Origin: Aquipuribacter nitratireducens
GTDB taxonomy: Bacteria; Actinomycetota; Actinomycetes; Actinomycetales; JBBAYJ01
Direction of reading: 5' to 3'
Assembly: GCF_037860835.1 (NCBI RefSeq)
Contig: NZ_JBBEOG010000001.1
Coordinates: 372,001 to 436,000 of the forward strand
DNA: 64,000 bases
Shown here one piece after another: positions 41,634 to 53,212 of this stretch. Position 1 is the stretch's first letter, and the number at the start of each line of letters is the position of its first letter. The position numbers were made by a program, and so were the translations under genes. Below the pieces are notes generated by a model. It searched no databases, was not told where the DNA came from, and worked only from the letters and a program-made list of their open reading frames with translations.

Positions 41634-44600
41634 ATGGCCGCAGCCCCGCACGCCGCCCCCGCACCGCGACGCGACACGGCCCCCGTCGCGGCCGCCGTCG
41701 TCCTGCTCGCAGCGGCAGGGGCCGCCCTGTCGCTGCTCGTCGGGACCGCGCTCCCGCCGGTGGCCGCGCTGCTCGTGGCCACGGCTGCCGCGCTGGGAGC
41801 GGTGGCGGCGGCACGGACGGCGAGCGGGCGCGTGCCGGGCGCCACGGGGTCGTGGGTGGCGGGACTCGCCGGTGCGATCGGCGCAGGGGCCGCCGGTGCC
41901 TGGGCGGCCGTGAGCGCCGCCTGGAGCACGGGCGTCCCGGTCACGGCCGCGGTCCTCGTCGTCCCCGTGCACGCCGCGCTCGCGCTGCTCGTCCTCGCCT
42001 GGGTGGTCGGACGGGGCTGGCGCGTGCCGCTCGACCCGGCCGCCGCCGGGCGCGCCGTCGTGGCGGCCAGGCGGCCGCTCGTCGCCGGGGTGACGTCGCT
42101 CCCGCTCGTCCTCACCCTGCTCGCAGGTCCCGCCGTCGCGCCGGCGACCGCCGCAGCGGTCGAGGACCCGGCGGTGGCGCCGTGCGTCGCGGGGGAGCAG
42201 GTCCGCAACTACGCCGTCTCGGCGATCACCGTCGACGTGCCGTTCAACCGCTGGGGGAAGACGCTGCGGAGCGCCCGCATCTTCGCGATGGACCAGGACC
42301 TCGCGGCGGTCCGAAACTGGCACCGGCCCCTGGCCGCGAGCGCCGCGGACGACCCCGCGGCGAACCGGCGGCTGCGCCCGCGTCCGCTCGTCCTCCGCGC
42401 CAACGAGGGCGAGTGCATCCGCGTCACCCTCACCAACCGGCTGTCGTCGGAGGCCGCGCACGGGCTGCCCGGGGACCCCCGGGTCGGCATCCAGGCCGCC
42501 GGCGTCGTGATGAACGTCCGCCGCTCCGGCGGCGCCCGCGTCGGCTACAACGCCGACCCGACCGTCGGCATCGGCGAGTCGATCTCGTACTTCTGGCGGG
42601 TGCCCGACCAGGAGGGCCTCTACATGTTCGAGGACCTCGCGACGCCGGCGGGTGGCGAGCACGACGCGGGCTCCCGCGGCGTCGGTCTCTACGGCGGCCT
42701 CGCGGTGCAGCCGGCGGGGTCCACGTGGACCGACCCGCGCAGCGGCAAGGTGCTGTCCGGCACGCCCGGGGCCCTCAACAGCACGTACGCGGCCGTCCGG
42801 AACCAGTCGGGCGAGCTCTACATCGAGGCCGACATCCACCCGCCGGGCGGCGACTCCTTCCGCGAGAGCATCCAGCTCGCCCAGGACGAGATCCCCGACA
42901 TCGGGATGGGGTTCAACTACGGCTCGGAGCCCCTGGAGGACCGCGAGACCGCACTCTGCCCCGACTGCGTGGGGGAGGAGACGTGGCTGTCGTCGTGGCC
43001 GTACGGGGACCCCGCGCTCGTCAAGCTCGCGAGCGGCAGGGGACCGTGGCTGCCGAACGGCGAGGGCGACCGGAAGGACAAGGAGGACTGCGGCCTGCCC
43101 GAGTCGTGCTACGTCTCCAACGTCTTCCACACGTACACCGGTGACGCGACGAAGATCCGCTTCGGTCTGGCAGGGGTGAAGGAGACCCACGTCTTCCACC
43201 TGCACGCCCACCAGTGGCTCGCCGACGCACGCGAGGACGTCGCGCAGGGCGACGGCCCGGGATACAAGCCCGGCTCGTCGACGATCGACTCGCAGAGCTA
43301 CGGGCCGGGCGAGGCGTACTCCGCCGAGCTCCTCTACGGCGCCGGCTCCCAGAACGGCACCTTCGGCGACTCGATCTTCCACTGCCACCTGTACCCGCAC
43401 TTCGCCGAGGGCTTCTGGGCGATCATGCGCGTCCACGACGTCCGCCTCGACGGCCGTTCCGCCACCCCGGACGGGGTCAACGTGCGCCCGCTCCAGCCGC
43501 TGCCCGACGCCCCGGCGCCGCCGCAGCCCACCGCCGACAACCCCGGCTTCCCCGGCATGATCCCCGGGACCTACGGCTACCGGGCGCCCCAGCCGCCGGG
43601 CAGCGTCACCGTCGGCGGCGTCGACGGCACCCCCGAGCGGCCTGCGCCGCGCGTGGTCGGCGGCCGTCCCATCGCCGAGGGCAAGCTCGCGCTCGAGGAG
43701 GGCGTCGTCGCGCGGCACAACCCCGGCGGCGAGGCCCCGCGCGGTGCCCCGTTCGCCGACCCCTGCCCGAGCGGGTCCCGCGAGGTCGACTACGCCGTCA
43801 CGGTGCTCCAGCGCGACCTCGTGTACAACACCGCGGGGCACCACGACCCGCAGGCCCGCGTCATGGTGCTGACGAAGGACGTCGAGGCCGTGCTCGCCGG
43901 CACGAAGAAGGTCGAGCCGCTCTTCATCCGCGCGAACGCCGGCGACTGCATCAACTTCTCCCTCACGAACATGACGCACAACTGGGCCGGCAACGACGTG
44001 TTCCAGAAGCTCGTCCAGACCAACATGGCAGGCGGGCACGTCCACCTCACGAAGTTCGACGTCACCGCCTCCGACGGCGGCTCCAACGGGTGGAACTACC
44101 AGCAGGCCGCCTTCACGAAGGAGCAGGCCGACTTCGTCGAGAAGCAGGCCGCAGGCGAGGTCCGGTGCACCCCGAGCGACACGTTCTACGGCGGTGAGAG
44201 CACCGGCTGCCGCATCCCCTACGACTGGTCGTGGCAGCCCCCGGCGGACTCCTCCGGGCTGTGGGGCCAGACGATCCACGAGCGCTGGTACGCCGACTAC
44301 GAGCTGCGGACCGCGTTCACCCACGACCACCACTTCCCGGCGGTCACGCAGAACCACGGCCACTACGGCGCCCTCGTCGTCGAGCCTGCCGGTTTCGACG
44401 TCCGCGACCCCGAGACCGGGGAGTTCCGCCAGCCGGTCAACGACCCCGCCCACGGCACCGTCTGCGGCGCCCGCTGCGACGGCGACGCCGACGGCGAGGC
44501 CGCCGACCTCGTCGGCCCCGGAGCCAACGACGACTACCGCGAGTTCGGGCTCGCCGTCGCCGACTTCGTGTCGCTGGTGAAGAAGGGCGGGAACCCCCGC

Positions 44601-47600
44601 AACCCCGACGACGCGATCAACCCGCCGGGCGCCCCCGAGTCCTTCCCCAGCAACGACCCCGGCACCTTCAGCGTCAACTACCGCAACGAGCCGCTCCACG
44701 AGCGCCGCACCCGCAACGGCCAGCCCGTCGACCCCGCTCACCGGTTCTCCTCGTGGGTGTTCGGCGACCCCTACACGCCGCTGCTGCAGGCCTACTCGCG
44801 CGACAACGTGAAGTTCCGTCTCATCCAGGGCTCGCACGAGGAGCAGCACATGTTCCAGGTGCACCGCCTGCGCTGGCTCGAGGAGCCCGACGACCCTGAC
44901 TCCCCGCTCGTCAACGCCCAGACCATCGGCATCTCCGAGGCGTTCAACGTCGAGATGCCGGGCTACGACTGCCGCGCCACGGACACCCCGTGCCGCGGGG
45001 ACCACCTCTACGGCGCCACGACCCCCGAGGGGCTGTGGAACGGCATGTGGGGCGTCCTCCGCGTCCACGGCCAGAGGACCGCCGGCCTGCTCCCGCTGCC
45101 GGACAACACCCCCCGCGAGGCGACCGTGCCCGAACCCGTCCCCGCCTCGCGGCAGGCGCCGCCGCCGGCGCAGCAGACCGGGACGAGCTGCCCCGACGGT
45201 GCCCCCGTGAAGCGCTACGACGTCGTCGCCATGGCGAACGACCTCGTCTACAACGAGCACGGCGACCACGACCCCAAGGGCGCGCTCTTCGTCCTCGCCG
45301 AGGACGAGGCCGCCGTGCGGGCCGGGACGAAGGCGCCCGAGCCGCTCGTCCTGCGCGCCAACGAGGGCGACTGCGTCCGCGTGACCCTCCACAACGCCCT
45401 GCCCGCGAACTACGGGGACCTCGTCAACGGCACCGACGGCGACATCCGGTACACGCTCGAGCCGCCGACCGGCACGCGCATGGGTACCCGGGTCTCGCTG
45501 CACCCGCAGATGCTGCGGCACGACGTGCGCCTGTCCGACGGCTCGGCCGTCGGGTTCAACCCCGACTCGACGGTCGGCATCAACGGCACGATCTCGTACG
45601 AGTGGTACGCCGACCGCGAGGTCGGCGCCACCAACCTCGTCGACTACGGCGACGTCCGGGGGCACCGCCACCACGGCCTGTTCGCGGGTCTCGTGGTCGA
45701 GCCGCGGAACGCCACGTACCACGACCCCGTGACGGGCGCCGAGGTCCGCAGCGGCGTGAGCGCGGACGTCCGCGTCCCCGGCCTCCGCGACTTCCGCGAG
45801 AACGTCCTCTTCTACGAGGACGGGCTCGACCTGCGCGACGCCACGGGCGCCGCGGTCGTCGACACCGTCCACCCGGGCGCGGCCGACGAGGTGCCGACCG
45901 GGCGGGAGGACCACGGCGATAAGGGCGTGAACTACACCAACGCCCCGCTGCACCGCCGTCTCGGCGCCCCCGCCGGCGCGCAGGCGGACGTCACGAGCGC
46001 CGCGTGGTCGACCGTGTTCAGCTCGGCCGTCCACGGCGACCCCCGGACCCCCGTGCTGCGCGCGTACGCCGGCGACGACCAGCGGGTCCGCCTGCTCAAC
46101 GGCTCCGCCAAGGCGCCGCCCGCGTACTTCGGCAGCTTCCAGCTCGACGGCGCCTCCTGGCGGGCCGAGCCGTACGACCCGCAGAGCGAGCGCGTCGGCC
46201 TCTACGGCAACCTCGGCTCCGGCGGGGCGAAGAACGTCCACGTCGGGCTCGCGACGCCGGGTGACCACCTGTGGGCGAGCAAGACGTCGCTGCAGCTGCC
46301 GAGCGGCGTCTGGGGCATGGCCCGGGTCTACCCGCAGCCGACCGCGGGCGCGGGCTTCACCCCCACCCCGCTGCGGCGCGTCGACAACCCCTACGGGCTC
46401 GACAACGTCCCCATCCTGCCGCTGGAGCGGGCCTCCGTGACCGTCGCGGTGTTCGACGACGCGGACGCCGACGGCGCCCGCGACGAGGGTGAGGCGGTGC
46501 GCGTCGGTGTCCCCGTCGAGCTGCGCGCCACCGACGGCACGGTCGTCTCGACCGTCCCCACGACCGCCGCGGGGACCGCGACGTTCTCCCCGACGCCCGG
46601 CGTCTACGACGTCGCGGTGAGCGCCCCGCAGGGGACCAGCGTCGTCGGGGCCCCGACGCGTCGCGTGGACGTGCGCGGGGACGTGGCACCCGCACGCCTC
46701 GCCGTGGGGGTCACCTCGCGCGTCGTCCTCACCGCCCGCGTCTTCGACGACCGCGACGGCGACGGCGTGCGCGACGAGGGCGAGCCCGGTCTCGCCGGGC
46801 GGACCGTCCAGCTCGACGGCCCGGTCCCGGTGGCCGACGGCACGACCGGCGCGGACGGCACCGCCACGGCCGCCGTCGTCGCCGGCACGTGGAAGGCGTA
46901 CATCGCCCCCCGCACGGGATGGACCGCGACGACGCCGCTGCCCGCCGTCGTCACGGTCTCGGGGACGGCGCCGGTGTCGGTCGACCTCGGTGTCCGGCGC
47001 GACCCGGGCGTCGTCGTCCGCGTCGTCGACGACGTCGACGGCAGCGGGACCGCCGGCCCGGCGGAGGCCGGCGTGCCCGGTGTCCTCGTCGACGCCACGC
47101 TCGCCGACGGCAGCGCGCTGTCCCGGCGCACGGGGGTCGACGGCGCGGTCGTCGACACCCGCGCCCAGGCCGCCACGCTGCGGGTCCTCGGGCCCGACAT
47201 GCGGACGTGGCCGTGCGTGAGCGCGGTGGTCACGCTCGTCGAGGGCTCGACCACCGTCGTCACGTGCGACGCGGCCGGAGCGTTCGCCGTCCCGGCCGAC
47301 GCCGTCGAGGTCTCCGTGCTCGGCGCCTTCGACGACGGCGTCGTGTCGGTCCAGCTCTTCCAGGACGCCGACTCCGACGGTCGCCGCGGTCCCACCGAAC
47401 CCGCGCTCGCGGACTGGCCCGTGGTCCTGCAGGACCCGGTCACCCACACGGAGGTCGCGCGTGGCACCACGGGCGCCGACGGCCTCACGGGCTTCCTCGT
47501 GCCTCCGGGCGACTACGAGGTGGTCCCGCTGCCACCCGTCTCCGACGTCGCGTGGACCAACACCGTCGGCGACTACGCGATCACCGTGGAGCGCGCGCAG

Positions 47601-48665
47601 CGGGCCCAGGCCAGCGGCGGGTGGGTGCAGCGGGCGTCGGTGTCCGCGTCGGTCTTCCACGACCTCGACGGCAACGGCCGGCGCGACGACTACGACCCGC
47701 CGCTCGCCGAGCGCACCGTCCGGCTCCTCGACTCCGCCGGCCGGCTGCGGTCGACCGCGGTCACCGACAGCACCGGCAGCGCGGTCTTCCCCGTCACCGC
47801 GGGCGCCTCGTACTCGGTGGAGACGACGGTGCCGAGCGGGTGGCGCGCCACCGGGCCGCTGAGCGGCACGACGGTGCAGTCCCGCGTGCCGTTGACCGCC
47901 CCGGCGGACGGCTCGCAGGCGGTGGTGGCGTTCGGGCAGTACAACACCGTCGACCGGACGCCGCCGGCGCGCCCGGTCCTCACCCCGGCGGGCGGGGTCC
48001 TCGACCGCCCGACCCTCGTCGGCTTCTCCGCCGAGACCGGGGCGACGATCCGGTACACGCTCGACGGTTCGACGCCGACCGCGACCCGCGGCATGGTCGT
48101 GAGCGGCGACGTCCGCATCGCCACCGACCGGGTGGTCCAGGCCGTCGCGGTCGACGCCGCGGGCAACGTGTCGGCCGTGGCATCGGCGACGTTCGACCTG
48201 CCGTGGACCGGTGCCGTGACCAGGGTGGGCGCCGGGGCGTGGCAGGCGACGACGGGCACGGTGCGCGGGACCGTCGCCGACGCCGCGGTCGACGACAACC
48301 GGTACCTGTCGGTGTCCGCCGGCCTCGTCGCGTCGCGGCGAACCGCCGACGTGACCGCTCGCGTCGTGCTGCCGGAGGCGGCCCGCACCCCTGCGGCCCT
48401 CGACGTGTCGATGTCGGCGCGGACGACCCTGCGCAACGTGCGGGTGCGGCTGCAGTACTGGGACAACGAGGGCGGCCTGTGGCGGAACCTGCTGACGCCC
48501 TACACCTCGGGACTCGACGAGCAGCGTGTCGACCTCGACCTGCCCGGCGCGGGTCGCGCGGTCGCCGCCGACGGCACGGTCCTCGTCCGCGTCGTCGCCG
48601 ACACCGCGCAGCCGTTCGACCTGCAGGTCGACCAGCTGACCGTCACCGCGGTGAACCGGCGGTGA
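41634..48665 (+). CDS. Giant membrane-anchored multicopper oxidase (six cupredoxin domains, SdrD-B-like repeats, chitobiase-C-like domain)
   Basis: A 2343-residue protein. Residues 14-175 hold four or five hydrophobic segments, so the rest is probably extracytoplasmic. Three related units follow (about 185-650, 700-1180, 1185-1590), each opening with a repeated strand pair (VLRANEGECIRVTLTN, FIRANAGDCINFSLTN, VLRANEGDCVRVTLHN), giving six cupredoxin-like domains. Copper motifs: HVFHLHAHQW (His519, 522, 524, 526) and HCHLYPHFAEGF (His583, Cys584, His585, His589; Phe at the axial position). Further His sites are FTHDHHFP (897, 899, 900), NHGHYG (908, 910), HMFQVH (1072, 1077) and HRHHG (1344-1347). 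From ~1600 come five SdrD-B/Cna-B-like domains (FDDADADGARDEGE type), a CHB_HEX_C domain (~2110-2180) and a final beta domain. AGGAG precedes the ATG. MnxG/MopA-like manganese oxidation is a hypothesis; other oxidations are possible. Confidence 0.88.
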   Translation: MAAAPHAAPAPRRDTAPVAAAVVLLAAAGAALSLLVGTALPPVAALLVATAAALGAVAAARTASGRVPGATGSWVAGLAGAIGAGAAGAWAAVSAAWSTGVPVTAAVLVVPVHAALALLVLAWVVGRGWRVPLDPAAAGRAVVAARRPLVAGVTSLPLVLTLLAGPAVAPATAAAVEDPAVAPCVAGEQVRNYAVSAITVDVPFNRWGKTLRSARIFAMDQDLAAVRNWHRPLAASAADDPAANRRLRPRPLVLRANEGECIRVTLTNRLSSEAAHGLPGDPRVGIQAAGVVMNVRRSGGARVGYNADPTVGIGESISYFWRVPDQEGLYMFEDLATPAGGEHDAGSRGVGLYGGLAVQPAGSTWTDPRSGKVLSGTPGALNSTYAAVRNQSGELYIEADIHPPGGDSFRESIQLAQDEIPDIGMGFNYGSEPLEDRETALCPDCVGEETWLSSWPYGDPALVKLASGRGPWLPNGEGDRKDKEDCGLPESCYVSNVFHTYTGDATKIRFGLAGVKETHVFHLHAHQWLADAREDVAQGDGPGYKPGSSTIDSQSYGPGEAYSAELLYGAGSQNGTFGDSIFHCHLYPHFAEGFWAIMRVHDVRLDGRSATPDGVNVRPLQPLPDAPAPPQPTADNPGFPGMIPGTYGYRAPQPPGSVTVGGVDGTPERPAPRVVGGRPIAEGKLALEEGVVARHNPGGEAPRGAPFADPCPSGSREVDYAVTVLQRDLVYNTAGHHDPQARVMVLTKDVEAVLAGTKKVEPLFIRANAGDCINFSLTNMTHNWAGNDVFQKLVQTNMAGGHVHLTKFDVTASDGGSNGWNYQQAAFTKEQADFVEKQAAGEVRCTPSDTFYGGESTGCRIPYDWSWQPPADSSGLWGQTIHERWYADYELRTAFTHDHHFPAVTQNHGHYGALVVEPAGFDVRDPETGEFRQPVNDPAHGTVCGARCDGDADGEAADLVGPGANDDYREFGLAVADFVSLVKKGGNPRNPDDAINPPGAPESFPSNDPGTFSVNYRNEPLHERRTRNGQPVDPAHRFSSWVFGDPYTPLLQAYSRDNVKFRLIQGSHEEQHMFQVHRLRWLEEPDDPDSPLVNAQTIGISEAFNVEMPGYDCRATDTPCRGDHLYGATTPEGLWNGMWGVLRVHGQRTAGLLPLPDNTPREATVPEPVPASRQAPPPAQQTGTSCPDGAPVKRYDVVAMANDLVYNEHGDHDPKGALFVLAEDEAAVRAGTKAPEPLVLRANEGDCVRVTLHNALPANYGDLVNGTDGDIRYTLEPPTGTRMGTRVSLHPQMLRHDVRLSDGSAVGFNPDSTVGINGTISYEWYADREVGATNLVDYGDVRGHRHHGLFAGLVVEPRNATYHDPVTGAEVRSGVSADVRVPGLRDFRENVLFYEDGLDLRDATGAAVVDTVHPGAADEVPTGREDHGDKGVNYTNAPLHRRLGAPAGAQADVTSAAWSTVFSSAVHGDPRTPVLRAYAGDDQRVRLLNGSAKAPPAYFGSFQLDGASWRAEPYDPQSERVGLYGNLGSGGAKNVHVGLATPGDHLWASKTSLQLPSGVWGMARVYPQPTAGAGFTPTPLRRVDNPYGLDNVPILPLERASVTVAVFDDADADGARDEGEAVRVGVPVELRATDGTVVSTVPTTAAGTATFSPTPGVYDVAVSAPQGTSVVGAPTRRVDVRGDVAPARLAVGVTSRVVLTARVFDDRDGDGVRDEGEPGLAGRTVQLDGPVPVADGTTGADGTATAAVVAGTWKAYIAPRTGWTATTPLPAVVTVSGTAPVSVDLGVRRDPGVVVRVVDDVDGSGTAGPAEAGVPGVLVDATLADGSALSRRTGVDGAVVDTRAQAATLRVLGPDMRTWPCVSAVVTLVEGSTTVVTCDAAGAFAVPADAVEVSVLGAFDDGVVSVQLFQDADSDGRRGPTEPALADWPVVLQDPVTHTEVARGTTGADGLTGFLVPPGDYEVVPLPPVSDVAWTNTVGDYAITVERAQRAQASGGWVQRASVSASVFHDLDGNGRRDDYDPPLAERTVRLLDSAGRLRSTAVTDSTGSAVFPVTAGASYSVETTVPSGWRATGPLSGTTVQSRVPLTAPADGSQAVVAFGQYNTVDRTPPARPVLTPAGGVLDRPTLVGFSAETGATIRYTLDGSTPTATRGMVVSGDVRIATDRVVQAVAVDAAGNVSAVASATFDLPWTGAVTRVGAGAWQATTGTVRGTVADAAVDDNRYLSVSAGLVASRRTADVTARVVLPEAARTPAALDVSMSARTTLRNVRVRLQYWDNEGGLWRNLLTPYTSGLDEQRVDLDLPGAGRAVAADGTVLVRVVADTAQPFDLQVDQLTVTAVNRR

Positions 48666-49246
48666 GCCGGGCCCCCAGCGGGCCCGCGGGTCCGCCGTGG
48701 CGCCGGGTCGGGCTCGTCCTGGTCGTCGCCGCTGCGGTCCTCGTCGTCGTCGGCGGGGCGGTGTGGAGCCTCGCCCGCACGGCGGCCACGGTTCCCGTCG
48801 GGGCGGACGAGCTCGCCGTTCCCGGGGGGCTCGTCCGCGTCGACCGGGTCCTCACCGCCGAGCAGGCGATGGCCGGCATGGCGATGCCGGGCATGGGCAC
48901 GGACGCCGACCCGGTTCCCGAGGGCGAGAAGCGGGTGTCGGTCGACGTCACCGTCCTCGGTGCCCGTGGCGACGGGGTGGCGGTCGACCCGGACGCCTTC
49001 ACGCTCGAGGCGCCGGGCGCGGGCGCCCGTCCGCCGCACCGCTCGGTGCTGCCCACCACGACCGTGCCGGCGGGGAGCAGGCTGTCGGGGACCCTCGTGT
49101 TCGACGTGCCCGCGGACGCCACGACCGGCGTGCTCGGCGTGGCGGGGGGCGGCGCGCTCGACGTGCCCCTCCCGGCGGAGGACGCGCACGACCCCTCGCA
49201 CGACCCGTCGCACGGACCGTCGCACGCGCCGGCGCCCTCGCCGTGA
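48662..49246 (+). CDS. Met- and His-rich membrane-anchored protein, putative copper-binding partner of the oxidase
   Basis: A 194-residue protein with one N-terminal transmembrane helix (VGLVLVVAAAVLVVVGGAVW). Just after it is the Met cluster MAGMAMPGMGTD (about residues 75-86), a Cu(I)-binding type of motif. A beta-rich DUF4352-like domain follows (KRVSVDVTVLG ... VDPDAFTLEAPG ... LSGTLVFDVP). The end is a His repeat, HDPSHDPSHGPSHAP, from 12-base tandem units. The GTG start overlaps the oxidase stop codon as GTGA, so the two are translated together. It probably supplies or stores copper for the oxidase at the outer membrane face. It has the role expected of small companions such as MnxE/MnxF, without obvious sequence identity that I can test. 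Confidence 0.8.
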   Translation: MSRAPSGPAGPPWRRVGLVLVVAAAVLVVVGGAVWSLARTAATVPVGADELAVPGGLVRVDRVLTAEQAMAGMAMPGMGTDADPVPEGEKRVSVDVTVLGARGDGVAVDPDAFTLEAPGAGARPPHRSVLPTTTVPAGSRLSGTLVFDVPADATTGVLGVAGGGALDVPLPAEDAHDPSHDPSHGPSHAPAPSP

Positions 49247-49869: not shown

Positions 49870-50232
49870 CTACGTCGCGATGTCGGGGTACGGCATCGAG
49901 TAGTGCGCGAGCCGTCGCGCGTACTCCAGCTGGAACCCGAGCGGCTCGGCGTGGTCCCGCTCGAACATCGCGATGAAGAGCGTGAGCGTGAGGAACGGGT
50001 GCGCGCCCAGGCCGAAGAGGGCGGGGTAGTCGTGCGTGCGCAGCGCCTCCCGCTCGGCGTCGGTGAACGCGAGCCACGTCGACCGCTCGTCGCCGTGGCA
50101 GGCGAGGATGCGGTTGGCCTCCTCCTGCTCCCACCACCCGACGGTCCCGACCGGGTCCTCGCGGTACCGCTCGACGAGCTCCGGGTCCCGGTCGACGCAG
50201 AACAGGAACTTGTTCACCAGGTACTTGCTCAC
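49870..50232 (-). CDS. LigA-like alpha subunit of an extradiol dioxygenase
   Basis: A 120-residue protein with the LigA fold: VSKYLVNKFLFCVDRDPELVERYREDP, then EEANRILACHGDERSTWLAFTDAEREALRTHDYPALFGLGAHPFLTLTLFIAMF. In protocatechuate 4,5-dioxygenase the alpha subunit covers the active site of the iron-bearing beta subunit. The GTG start at 50232 overlaps the LigB-like gene's stop as GTGA, so the subunits are coupled and probably form a heterodimer. It carries no metal ligands itself. Confidence 0.9.
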   Translation of the reverse strand: MSKYLVNKFLFCVDRDPELVERYREDPVGTVGWWEQEEANRILACHGDERSTWLAFTDAEREALRTHDYPALFGLGAHPFLTLTLFIAMFERDHAEPLGFQLEYARRLAHYSMPYPDIAT

Positions 50233-51110
50233 GCCGCACCTCCGGCCGGCTGCGGGACCCCGTTCGGGTACCACGTGAAGTACGCCTCCATCGTGTGGAA
50301 GAGGTCGAGGGAGTCGACGTGGTCGGCCTTCTGCCCCTCTCCCGCCACGCCCATCATGAGCATGAAGTCCATGAACCCGTGGGTGGCGTTGCCCGGGGCG
50401 TGGAGGGACTCCAGCGTCACCTCGGCGAGCGTCTTCTCGATGTCGCCGGTGGCGATCCACTCGACCGCCTTCCGGTCGAACTCCGGGTCCGGGCCGTGGG
50501 GGCCGAACTGGCGCGGACCGCCGAGCTCGAGGCTGAGGTGGCCGGTACCGATGATCGCGACGCGCTTGTCGCTCGGCCACGACTCGACCATCTCCCGGAT
50601 GGCCTGCCCGAGCTGGACGAACCGCTTCGGCTGCGGCAGAGGAGGGGCGAAGATGTTCGTGTACACCGGCACGATCGGCAGGTCGTTCTGCGGGCGCAGC
50701 GTGATGATCGGGCACGTCACCGAGTGGTCGATGCGCAGCTCGTTGCTGAACGCGAGGTCGAAGCCCATGTCGAGGCCGTTGCGCAGCAGGTGCCCGGACA
50801 GGTCCCGGTCCCCGAGCATGTGCATCCGCGGCAGGCCGAACTCCCGCTCCTCGTTGTACCAGTTGGCGTCGTACTGCTCCGCGTGGCCGACGAGGAACTG
50901 CGGCATGTTGTCGAGCCACAGCTGGTGGAAGTGGTCGCTGCCGACCATGAGGAGCACGTCGGGGCGCGCGGCGGTGAGGGTGGCGCGGAACGCCTCGATC
51001 TTGCGGACCCACTCGTCGGCGAACGGCGGGCGGTCCTCACCGGTCGCGGTGCTCGCGCGGTAGTAGAACGGGTGGTGGGTCGAGGCGACGACGGCGACGA
51101 TCTCTGCCAA
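50229..51110 (-). CDS. LigB-like catalytic subunit of a class III extradiol ring-cleavage dioxygenase
   Basis: A 293-residue protocatechuate-4,5-dioxygenase-like iron enzyme. Its ligand region begins VVASTHHPF (His12, His13) and continues with VLLMVGSDHFHQLW (His60). A further conserved HLSLELGG and an E-rich C-terminal segment (EVTLESLHAPGNATHGFMDF) complete the expected active-site set. Relatives cleave protocatechuate, gallate, 3-O-methylgallate or 2,3-dihydroxyphenylpropionate beside their hydroxyls. The start is a TTG at 51110, unusual here but fixed by AAGGAG 8 bases upstream and the conserved N-terminus. It lies 33 bases downstream of the citryl-CoA-lyase-like gene. The substrate is not known. 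Confidence 0.9.
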   Translation of the reverse strand: MAEIVAVVASTHHPFYYRASTATGEDRPPFADEWVRKIEAFRATLTAARPDVLLMVGSDHFHQLWLDNMPQFLVGHAEQYDANWYNEEREFGLPRMHMLGDRDLSGHLLRNGLDMGFDLAFSNELRIDHSVTCPIITLRPQNDLPIVPVYTNIFAPPLPQPKRFVQLGQAIREMVESWPSDKRVAIIGTGHLSLELGGPRQFGPHGPDPEFDRKAVEWIATGDIEKTLAEVTLESLHAPGNATHGFMDFMLMMGVAGEGQKADHVDSLDLFHTMEAYFTWYPNGVPQPAGGAA

Positions 51111-51143
51111 CTCGGGACTCCTTCGTCCGGTCCGGTGGGGCGG

Positions 51144-51956
51144 TCAGGCCCGGGGGTCGTTGTCGGACTCGTGGGGGACGTACGTGGCGTTGCGGTCGAC
51201 CGTGAGGTAGACGTCCATGCCGAGCGGGCGCCGGCGCTCCTCGGCCAGGTGCCCGAGCAGGCCCGCGGTGCGGGCGAGGAGGGCGACGCCGCGGAGCAGC
51301 TCGACGGGCAGGTCGAGGTCCGCCAGCGCCGCCCCGCAGACGCCCGCGCCGTTGAGGGGCAGCGTGCGGCCGAGGACCTGCGGGTGGACGCGACCGACGG
51401 CCTCGAACAGCCGCAGGTGCGGCCCGCGAAGCCCCTCCTCCTCGGCGACGGCGAGGATCCGGGGCGTGCGCGGGTCGCGCTCCTTGTGGACGGGGTGACC
51501 GAGCCCGGGCACGAACCGCTTCTGCGACCGGGCCTCCTGCACCGCGGCGAGGGCGAGGGCGTCCCAGCCGGCGTCGTCGGTGGGGAGGGCACCGTCGACC
51601 CCGGCCAGGACGCCGGCGAGGAAGCGGCCGGAGTCCTCGGTCACCCCGAGGAACCGCGAGCCGCCCCCGAGCAGCCCCGCCGCGAGCGCACCCTGGAGGG
51701 AGTCCGGCGCGCTGAGGTACGTGAGACGCGACGCGATGGCCGTCGGGGTGAAGCCGTGGTCGGCGAGGGCGACGAGGACGGTCTCGAACACCCGGACGTG
51801 GCCGGGCTCCGGTCGCCGCTGCGTCATGAGCCACAGGGCGAGCTCGCCGAAGCCCACCCGGCCCATGAGGTCCTCGGCGAGGTCGTGGCCCATGAGCCGG
51901 ATCTGCTCGGCGTCTGAGGTGCCGAGGCCCGTGGGGAACTCGGGGACCCCGCTCAC
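51144..51956 (-). CDS. Citrate-synthase-fold protein, citryl-CoA-lyase-like
   Basis: A 270-residue citrate-synthase-fold enzyme, much shorter than a normal citrate synthase. Conserved parts include RPEPGHVRVFETVLVALADHGFTPTAIASRLTYLSAPDSLQGALAAGLLGGGSRFLGVTEDSGRF, KRFVPGLGHPVHKERDPR (the GHP-H-K segment with the active-site His) and LPLNGAGVCGAALADLDLP. It probably cleaves or forms a CoA-thioester aldol product. The GTG start at 51956 overlaps the CoA-transferase stop codon. Together they suggest that a ring-cleavage acid is activated to a CoA ester and then split, in place of the usual free-acid aldolase. This is inference. Confidence 0.8.
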   Translation of the reverse strand: MSGVPEFPTGLGTSDAEQIRLMGHDLAEDLMGRVGFGELALWLMTQRRPEPGHVRVFETVLVALADHGFTPTAIASRLTYLSAPDSLQGALAAGLLGGGSRFLGVTEDSGRFLAGVLAGVDGALPTDDAGWDALALAAVQEARSQKRFVPGLGHPVHKERDPRTPRILAVAEEEGLRGPHLRLFEAVGRVHPQVLGRTLPLNGAGVCGAALADLDLPVELLRGVALLARTAGLLGHLAEERRRPLGMDVYLTVDRNATYVPHESDNDPRA

Positions 51957-53212
51957 CGGTGGGCCTCCGCCCGCTCCGCCGTCGCCGTCGCTGTCGCCGT
52001 CCGGACGCTGCCGGGTCGGGGCCCGTCCTCCAGCAGCCAGCGGCGGACCTCGTCACCGTGCTCGTCGAGCGCCGGTGGCGGCAGGCGGTACGACGCCGGG
52101 GTCGCGGAGAAGCGGACGGGGTTGCGCACGACCGGGACGGCCGCCGCCCCCTCGCCGACCTCGACGACCGGCTCGAGGCCGAGCTCGGTGGCGAAGGCGA
52201 CACCCTCGTCGACGGTGTTGATGGGAGCGCACGGGACCCCGGCGTCGAGGAGGTCGCGGAACCACTCGTCGCGGGTGCGGGTCCGCAGCCGCTCGACGAG
52301 CAGCGGGTAGAGCTCCTCGCGGTTGGCCGTGCGGTCCTGGTTGTGCGCGAAGCGGGGGTCGTCGACGAGCCCCGGCACGCCGAGGACGTCGCAGAGGCGG
52401 GCGAACTGCCCGTCGTTGCCCGCGATGACGATGAGCTCGCCGTCGGCGACGGGCAGCGGCTCGTAGGGGAACAGGGACGGGTGGGCGTTGCCCATCCGGA
52501 ACGGCACGGTGCCGCCGGCGACCCACGCGCTCGTGTGGTTGACGAGCCCGGACAGGGCGGTCGACATGAGGTTGACCTCGACGTGCTGGCCGCGGCCGGC
52601 GCCCGCGCCGGCGCGGTGGGTGAGGGCGGCGAGGATCCCGATGGTCGCCTGCATGCCGGACATGACGTCGAAGACGCTGATGCCGGCCCGGTACGGCGAG
52701 CCGTCGGGGTCGCCCGTGAGGCTCATGAGCCCGGACATCGCCTGGACCATGAGGTCGTAGCCGGGCAGCGACGCCCCCGCCCCCGGCCCGAAGCCCGTGA
52801 TGGAGGCGTACACGACGCCGGGGTTCGCGTCGCTCACGCTCGCGTAGTCGAGGCCGTACTTCGACAGGCCCCCGGGCTTGAAGTTCTCGATGACGACGTC
52901 GGCCCGCCGGGCCAGCTCCTGGGCGGCCCGCAGGTCCGTGGCGTCGCGCAGGTCGAGCGCGACGGAGCGCTTGCCGCGGTTGACGCCGAGGTAGTAGGTC
53001 GACACGTCCTCGCGGACGGGGGGCATCCACGTGCGGGTGTCGTCGCCGGTGCCGGGGCTCTCGACCTTGACGACCTCGGCGCCCATGTCGGAGAGCAGCA
53101 TCGTCGCGTACGGCCCCGCGAGGATGCGGGAGAAGTCCGCCACCAGGAGACCGGCGAGCGGTCCCGTCGGCGTGCCGGGTGCGGGGGTGGCACCGTCCCG
53201 CTGCGTCGTCAT
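51953..53212 (-). CDS. CaiB/BaiF family III CoA-transferase
   Basis: A 419-residue family III CoA-transferase, which moves CoA between carboxylic acids through an aspartyl-CoA anhydride. Seen: VADFSRILAGPYATMLLSDMGAEVVKVESPGTGDDTR, YYLGVNRGKRSVALDL, ADVVIENFKPGGLSKYGL, the catalytic Asp153 in GYDLMVQAMSG, and FDVMSGMQATIGILAAL. A disordered Thr/Ala tail ends the product. ATG 53212 begins the coding sequence. An inverted repeat, a probable IclR site, lies 21 bases upstream. First gene of the operon CoA-transferase, lyase-like, LigB, LigA. Confidence 0.92.
   Translation of the reverse strand: MTTQRDGATPAPGTPTGPLAGLLVADFSRILAGPYATMLLSDMGAEVVKVESPGTGDDTRTWMPPVREDVSTYYLGVNRGKRSVALDLRDATDLRAAQELARRADVVIENFKPGGLSKYGLDYASVSDANPGVVYASITGFGPGAGASLPGYDLMVQAMSGLMSLTGDPDGSPYRAGISVFDVMSGMQATIGILAALTHRAGAGAGRGQHVEVNLMSTALSGLVNHTSAWVAGGTVPFRMGNAHPSLFPYEPLPVADGELIVIAGNDGQFARLCDVLGVPGLVDDPRFAHNQDRTANREELYPLLVERLRTRTRDEWFRDLLDAGVPCAPINTVDEGVAFATELGLEPVVEVGEGAAAVPVVRNPVRFSATPASYRLPPPALDEHGDEVRRWLLEDGPRPGSVRTATATATAERAEAHR

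Follow-up and report, generated by a model that had tools for sequence, protein, structure and literature searches.

A predicted six-domain multicopper oxidase and its DUF4352-like membrane partner, a candidate extracytoplasmic metal oxidation system in Aquipuribacter nitratireducens and other Actinomycetota

The closest characterised enzyme to the oxidase described here is MnxG, the Mn(II) oxidase of Bacillus sp., which forms part of the Mnx complex (MnxG-E3F3; PDB 9bxa). MnxG requires MnxE and MnxF for activity, both of these partners themselves bind copper, and MnxG has been described as the sole characterised multicopper oxidase requiring accessory proteins (PMC5622069). Every bacterial six-domain oxidase examined has its mononuclear copper site in domain 2 and its trinuclear site at the junction of domains 2 and 3 (PMC3600357). 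Our literature search found no genetic basis for manganese oxidation in Actinomycetota, including Rubrobacter, no paper linking DUF4352 to an oxidase and no experiment on any member of the oxidase clade described below. MopA, which a first-pass annotation of this DNA had suggested for comparison, is a heme peroxidase (PMC6247904) and was set aside as not a relevant relative.

The window analysed here is a stretch of 64,000 nucleotides from A. nitratireducens (GCF_037860835.1; contig NZ_JBBEOG010000001.1, positions 372,001 to 436,000), and all features of the gene pair lie on its forward strand. The oxidase open reading frame, P0001 (41634-48665), encodes 2343 amino acids from an ATG start with AGGAG, a plausible ribosome-binding site, about 10 nt upstream. 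Its TGA stop overlaps, as GTGA, the GTG start (48662) of P0002 (48662..49246), which encodes a 194-residue, DUF4352-like, putatively membrane-anchored beta-sandwich protein that we propose as a copper-binding partner. These calls agree with the first-pass annotation, which had described a 2343-residue reading frame overlapping by GTGA with a membrane protein gene, and both genes are considered real because homologues of each are found elsewhere. The flanking genes are encoded on the opposite strand, no other gene runs with the pair, and no CopC or CopD gene lies beside it in the window.

The first-pass annotation had proposed a search against MnxG, and MnxG proved to be by far the best PDB match of P0001 in phmmer searches (9bxa, E 1e-203), colinear over all three units of the core. 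The protein opens with a membrane segment (residues 1-183; 41634..42182) that shows 3-5 hydrophobic stretches, with hydropathy peaks at residues 18-36, 107-125 and 158-176. Three two-domain cupredoxin units follow: unit 1 (D1 and D2, residues 184-640; 42183..43553), whose D2 carries the type-1 copper (T1) site together with one half of the trinuclear ligand set; unit 2 (D3 and D4, residues 711-1165; 43764..45128), whose D3 carries the other half and whose D4 retains only H1072 of a T1 site; and unit 3 (D5 and D6, residues 1186-1577; 45189..46364), which has incomplete ligand sets only and includes RGHRHHG at residues 1342-1348. Downstream lie five SdrD_B-like repeats (46365..47948; Pfam PF17210, 2.9e-31, with three stretches passing individually), which also match SdrD in the PDB and each of which has an acidic SdrD-type Ca-loop-like motif (residues 1607, 1704, 1798, 1909 and 2008). 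These are followed by a chitobiase/beta-hexosaminidase C-terminal-like domain (residues 2118-2187; 47985..48194; CHB_HEX_C_1 PF13290, 2.3e-11, and PF13287, 2.4e-8) and, at the C terminus, a domain without family assignment (residues 2188-2343; 48195..48662). Hydropathy, colinearity with 9bxa, the Pfam scores and the five Ca-loop-like motifs thereby uphold the anatomy read in the first pass, namely N-terminal hydrophobic segments, three two-domain cupredoxin units, five SdrD-B-like domains and a chitobiase-C-like domain. The MnxG chain, of 1227 residues, shares with P0001 the order of its six cupredoxin domains, the D2/D3 ligands and the T1 His-Cys ligands in D2, but has neither the N-terminal membrane segment nor the long stalk. 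From the N-terminal membrane segment we infer that P0001 is exported. A sorting signal (LPXTG) and a terminal membrane helix were looked for at the C terminus and neither was seen, so display on the cell would hinge on the N-terminal segment, which might be cleaved off, staying uncleaved.

Copper ligands were compared in an alignment of 13 sequences (the window core, 11 relatives and residues 3-802 of 9bxa), each His being assigned to T1, T2 or T3 from the laccase motif pattern and not from a structure of P0001. The HVFHLH motif of D2 (43188..43205), comprising H519 (T1) with H522 and H524 (T2/T3), is invariant in 13/13. In the HCHLYPH motif (43380..43400), which would provide H583 and H585 to T3 and C584 and H589 to T1, the first three ligands are likewise kept in every sequence, and H589 is kept in 12/13. 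The exception is the 9bxa MnxG chain, which has Ala at this position, where the second T1 His is present in the other aligned relatives and in a Priestia MnxG homologue. Domain 3 holds two further motifs assigned to the trinuclear site, HVH (44037..44045; H802 and H804) and HDH (44322..44330; H897 and H899), both invariant in 13/13. The trinuclear set of P0001 is complete, with all eight His (H522, H524, H583 and H585 from D2; H802, H804, H897 and H899 from D3) unchanged across the 13 sequences, and the D2/D3 trinuclear site and the D2 T1 site, with its His-Cys ligands, are placed as stated for six-domain oxidases (PMC3600357).

The HxxHxH and HCHxxxH motifs occur once each in P0001 (H519-H524 and H583-H589), further HxH motifs lie at residues 802, 897, 908 and 1344, and the remaining domain interfaces are without a complete ligand set in the 13-sequence alignment, which is also the case in other bacterial six-domain oxidases. 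The first-pass annotation had placed a complete site in unit 1 and scattered His clusters in units 2 and 3. Both motifs are indeed present in unit 1, but they supply only one half of the active site, and D3 of unit 2 contributes the remaining four trinuclear His; the clusters of unit 3 are incomplete. P0001 is thus a predicted oxidase with one T1 site and one complete trinuclear site split between D2 and D3, and it is very probably active in this form. An AlphaFold2 model of D1-D4 (998 residues), built from an alignment of 3 rows with the Rubrobacter rows left out, had a mean pLDDT of 28.6 and was discarded, so that assembly of the site in the folded protein is predicted from homology. We regard it as highly improbable that P0001 serves chiefly as an adhesin or wall protein with relic oxidase sites: the SdrD-like repeats and chitobiase-C-like domain would suit such a protein, as would the degeneration of two of the three possible copper interfaces, but every ligand of the complete site is kept in distant relatives, and it is the stalk that varies.

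The axial T1 position is Phe594 in P0001, and it is also Phe in L001 (a locus of an uncultured Cellulomonas), in Rubrobacter and in L046, versus Met in the other aligned sequences, Bacillus MnxG among them. An axial Phe is typical of high-potential T1 sites in laccases. Acidic residues flank the T1 ligands at E517 (Glu in 10 and acidic in 11 of the 13 sequences) and D579 (13/13).

In NCBIfam, too, MnxG is the best match: its model NF041487 (1894 positions), which we take to represent Pseudomonas-type MnxG, matches P0001 in six stretches over much of its length (2.9e-115). The score of 385.9 bits falls far short of the 3100 bits set as the equivalog cut-off; Pfam oxidase models scarcely detect the protein (0.23). 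In a tree of 18 oxidase cores, P0001 falls with the L001 oxidase, to which it is 72% identical, beside those of Rubrobacteraceae (support 100/100), and MnxG groups apart from this clade with homologues from Priestia plasmids (support 100/99). Judged by these comparisons, P0001 is not an MnxG equivalog but a predicted bacterial six-domain multicopper oxidase that is MnxG-like in a broad sense.

The relatives of P0001 differ mainly outside the core. The Rubrobacteraceae oxidases (L039-L045 and the Rubrobacter marinus plasmid NZ_CP045122.1), approximately 50-56% identical to P0001 over the core, resemble it in having the DUF4352 partner, a membrane domain at the N terminus and an Ig-type tail at the C terminus, but have 7-8 hydrophobic segments against 3-5 in the window and Big_3_5/Ig tails in place of SdrD_B. 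The L001 oxidase has the same SdrD_B and chitobiase-C tail as P0001, yet homology between the two begins in tblastn only at the oxidase core, and their N-terminal segments cannot be aligned, though L001 has one; the L002 oxidase has a short N-terminal hydrophobic region and lacks the tail. Across relatives the core stays constant, with a variable anchor and stalk. The N-terminal anchor and adhesin-like tail, which had seemed unusual for this class in the first pass, are both real, but both vary among relatives, and Rubrobacter, too, has an N-terminal membrane domain and a tail. The multi-TM N-terminal domain of the Rubrobacter oxidases (about 300 residues) has recurring HLW..EH and WWGYG motifs and no Pfam match, and it also occurs as a separate small gene beside them (L040 6192-6578).

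Among 396 genomes sampled across the phylum, close oxidase homologues occur in 7 (approximately 54-56% identity, or the window itself) and weaker ones in 4. Within the genus of A. nitratireducens, the oxidase is present in one of three genomes, that of the window only. Its occurrence is patchy, and the gene may have been transferred horizontally.

The model of P0002 (mean pLDDT 76) consists of a transmembrane helix at residues 13-41 and a beta-sandwich whose nearest fold is Bacillus subtilis YcdA (Foldseek E 7e-5); YjhA also matches. DUF4352 (Pfam PF11611) was matched by 7/7 members of the P0002 family, with a best value of 1.3e-6 and an E of 0.045, below gathering, for P0002 alone, and the R. 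marinus homologue is annotated as DUF4352. YcdA and YjhA are DUF4352 lipoproteins with a beta-sandwich fold like that of P0002, which differs from them in its transmembrane helix in place of a lipid anchor, in its Met-rich loop and in its association with an oxidase.

The Met-rich loop MAGMAMPGM (M70, M73, M75 and M78; 48869..48895) is modelled with low confidence (residues 74-80) and is presumably flexible. A density of four Met in nine residues was reached in 6/20,000 shuffles, and that of the His-rich tail HDPSHDPSHGPSH (49187..49225), likewise of low model confidence, in 132/20,000. The tail is not conserved in L001, and the loop, which is Met-rich in relatives too, is more widely shared, including by the Rubrobacter members. 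Of the MAGMAMPGMG and HDPSH repeats singled out in the first pass, then, the former lies in a loop whose Met content exceeds chance and is kept in relatives, but the His-repeat tail is not conserved in L001.

Homologues of P0002 were found in L001 and in five aligned Rubrobacter loci. A profile search of the 396 genomes yielded eight strong matches, which are all seven genomes with a close oxidase homologue and one more Rubrobacteraceae genome, a count of co-occurrence that is inflated by kinship within Rubrobacteraceae. The window and L001, which belong to a class other than that of Rubrobacteraceae, keep the oxidase and P0002 genes adjacent, as does the R. marinus plasmid. P0002 is therefore a conserved partner of the oxidase across Actinomycetota, and the small Met-rich membrane partner first read at this locus holds up, being co-conserved with the oxidase and lying amid CopC/CopD genes in Rubrobacter. 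Searches of the P0002 family profile against PDB sequences gave chance-level matches only, with no link to MnxE or MnxF, and tblastn with the two small Priestia genes upstream of an MnxG homologue, both short and divergent queries, gave no match in the window or in the relatives' loci.

Copper supply by P0002 is plausible, and the protein probably works in copper loading or assembly. With a somewhat smaller chance it may instead be a structural subunit or assembly factor (with a role, though not a sequence, like that of MnxE/MnxF) or a membrane tether, and this alternative concerns P0002 only and is compatible with either view of the oxidase. The need of MnxG for MnxE and MnxF (PMC5622069), the modelled transmembrane helix and Ig-like DUF4352 fold, and the lack of conservation of the His tail in L001 would all accord with a subunit; the retention of the Met-rich loop in relatives and the position of the gene amid copper genes in R. 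marinus speak for copper handling instead. The two roles may also coincide, since MnxE and MnxF bind copper themselves (PMC5622069).

The gene neighbourhoods of relatives bear on the substrate. On the R. marinus plasmid NZ_CP045122.1, ZIP and CDF transporter genes lie upstream of the oxidase and DUF4352 genes, and after these come a two-component pair, DUF1775, CopC and CopD. The neighbours in other Rubrobacter loci and L001 include signal peptidase I, CopD and three-domain CotA-like oxidases, and CopC and DUF1775 are also among the genes near the oxidase in the Rubrobacter islands and L001. On Priestia plasmids, the homologues of MnxG have a CopC/CopD gene and two short genes nearby. The genome of the window does encode CopD proteins and a CotA-like oxidase, at sites away from the pair. 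This three-domain CotA-like gene (G000:C1:204846-206471; L086, L093) is 55% identical to the one near the L001 oxidase and lies about 208 kb from the oxidase locus; copper genes were not recognised beside it, and the L001 neighbour genes, sought near the window and near this CotA homologue, were not clustered.

Mn(II) is the best single guess at a substrate because the nearest characterised enzyme oxidises Mn(II), and by this analogy the chance that it is the main substrate falls just short of even. It is quite possible that an oxidase of the same build acts on Cu(I) or Fe(II) in metal detoxification, or on phenolic or other organic compounds in the manner of a laccase, in which case the CopC, CopD, DUF1775 and CotA-like neighbours in Rubrobacter islands and L001 would be the sign of a copper-resistance or laccase island. 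Such substrates would accord with the separation of the clade from MnxG, and a high T1 potential is not selective for Mn(II). Against this reading stands the Mn(II) activity of the nearest characterised relative, and CopC/CopD fit copper supply equally, since they also accompany the Priestia MnxG homologue. Nor is the CotA-like neighbour decisive, given that Mn oxidase activity is reported for CotA itself (PMC3618234).

In a model with Mn(II) as substrate, P0001 would be exported through its N-terminal membrane segment and fold into six cupredoxin domains. Type-1 copper in domain 2 would accept single electrons from an outside substrate and pass them to the trinuclear centre between domains 2 and 3, where O2 would be reduced to water. 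The stalk of Ca-loop repeats, together with the terminal domains, may keep the catalytic part off the membrane or in the cell wall, P0002 would bind copper by its Met-rich loop (here also by its His tail) to load or assemble the oxidase, and Mn(II) would be oxidised to Mn(III/IV) as by MnxG. Taken as a whole, Mn(II) included, this extracytoplasmic multicopper-oxidase system of P0001 and P0002 is a proposal that we consider evenly balanced. More tentatively, Actinomycetota may own an undescribed, MnxE/MnxF-independent Mn(II)-oxidising system, made up of a membrane-anchored, stalked six-domain oxidase and a dedicated DUF4352 copper loader and served in Rubrobacter by CopC/CopD, signal peptidase and a dedicated regulon.

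Should the substrate prove to be Mn(II), manganese oxidation in Actinomycetota, Rubrobacter among them, could be assigned to a concrete pair of genes, and R. marinus is a cultured carrier of the pair. With P0002, large oxidases would also gain a new copper-loading partner; as a second solution unrelated to that of MnxG, it would help to tell copper supply apart from catalysis. Rubrobacter is reportedly mentioned in one study of rock varnish, and an Mn(II)-oxidising system of this kind, if true, could contribute to such Mn oxide coatings.

A conserved element of approximately 30 bp, roughly TAGCCCANNTGGGCTAGGCAAAGATCGCCCA, precedes both the oxidase gene (L039 8977, -; L040 7239, +; L045 13704, -) and the P0002 homologue (L042 19063, +; L044 4226, -; L045 7439, -) in Rubrobacter. 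It is built of a palindrome, TAGCCCANNTGGGCTA, followed by GGCAAAGATCGCC, and is a candidate operator or RNA element. With two mismatches allowed, it was found in six of the seven Rubrobacteraceae genomes searched, mostly clustered in the copper/oxidase islands, and was absent from the window's genome; an Rfam search of the Rubrobacter islands gave no match for it.

Two copies of the oxidase locus are present in R. marinus, one on the plasmid NZ_CP045122.1 (L080 8011-14079) and one on the chromosome (L044 9836-15756). The plasmid copy of the oxidase may be a duplicate in decay, being annotated as two separate genes and having a stop codon within its six-frame match. In the window itself, a run of minus-strand genes at 49870-53212 resembles by eye an aromatic-compound pathway, with apparent LigB-type dioxygenase subunits, a citrate-synthase/lyase-like protein and a CaiB-type CoA transferase.
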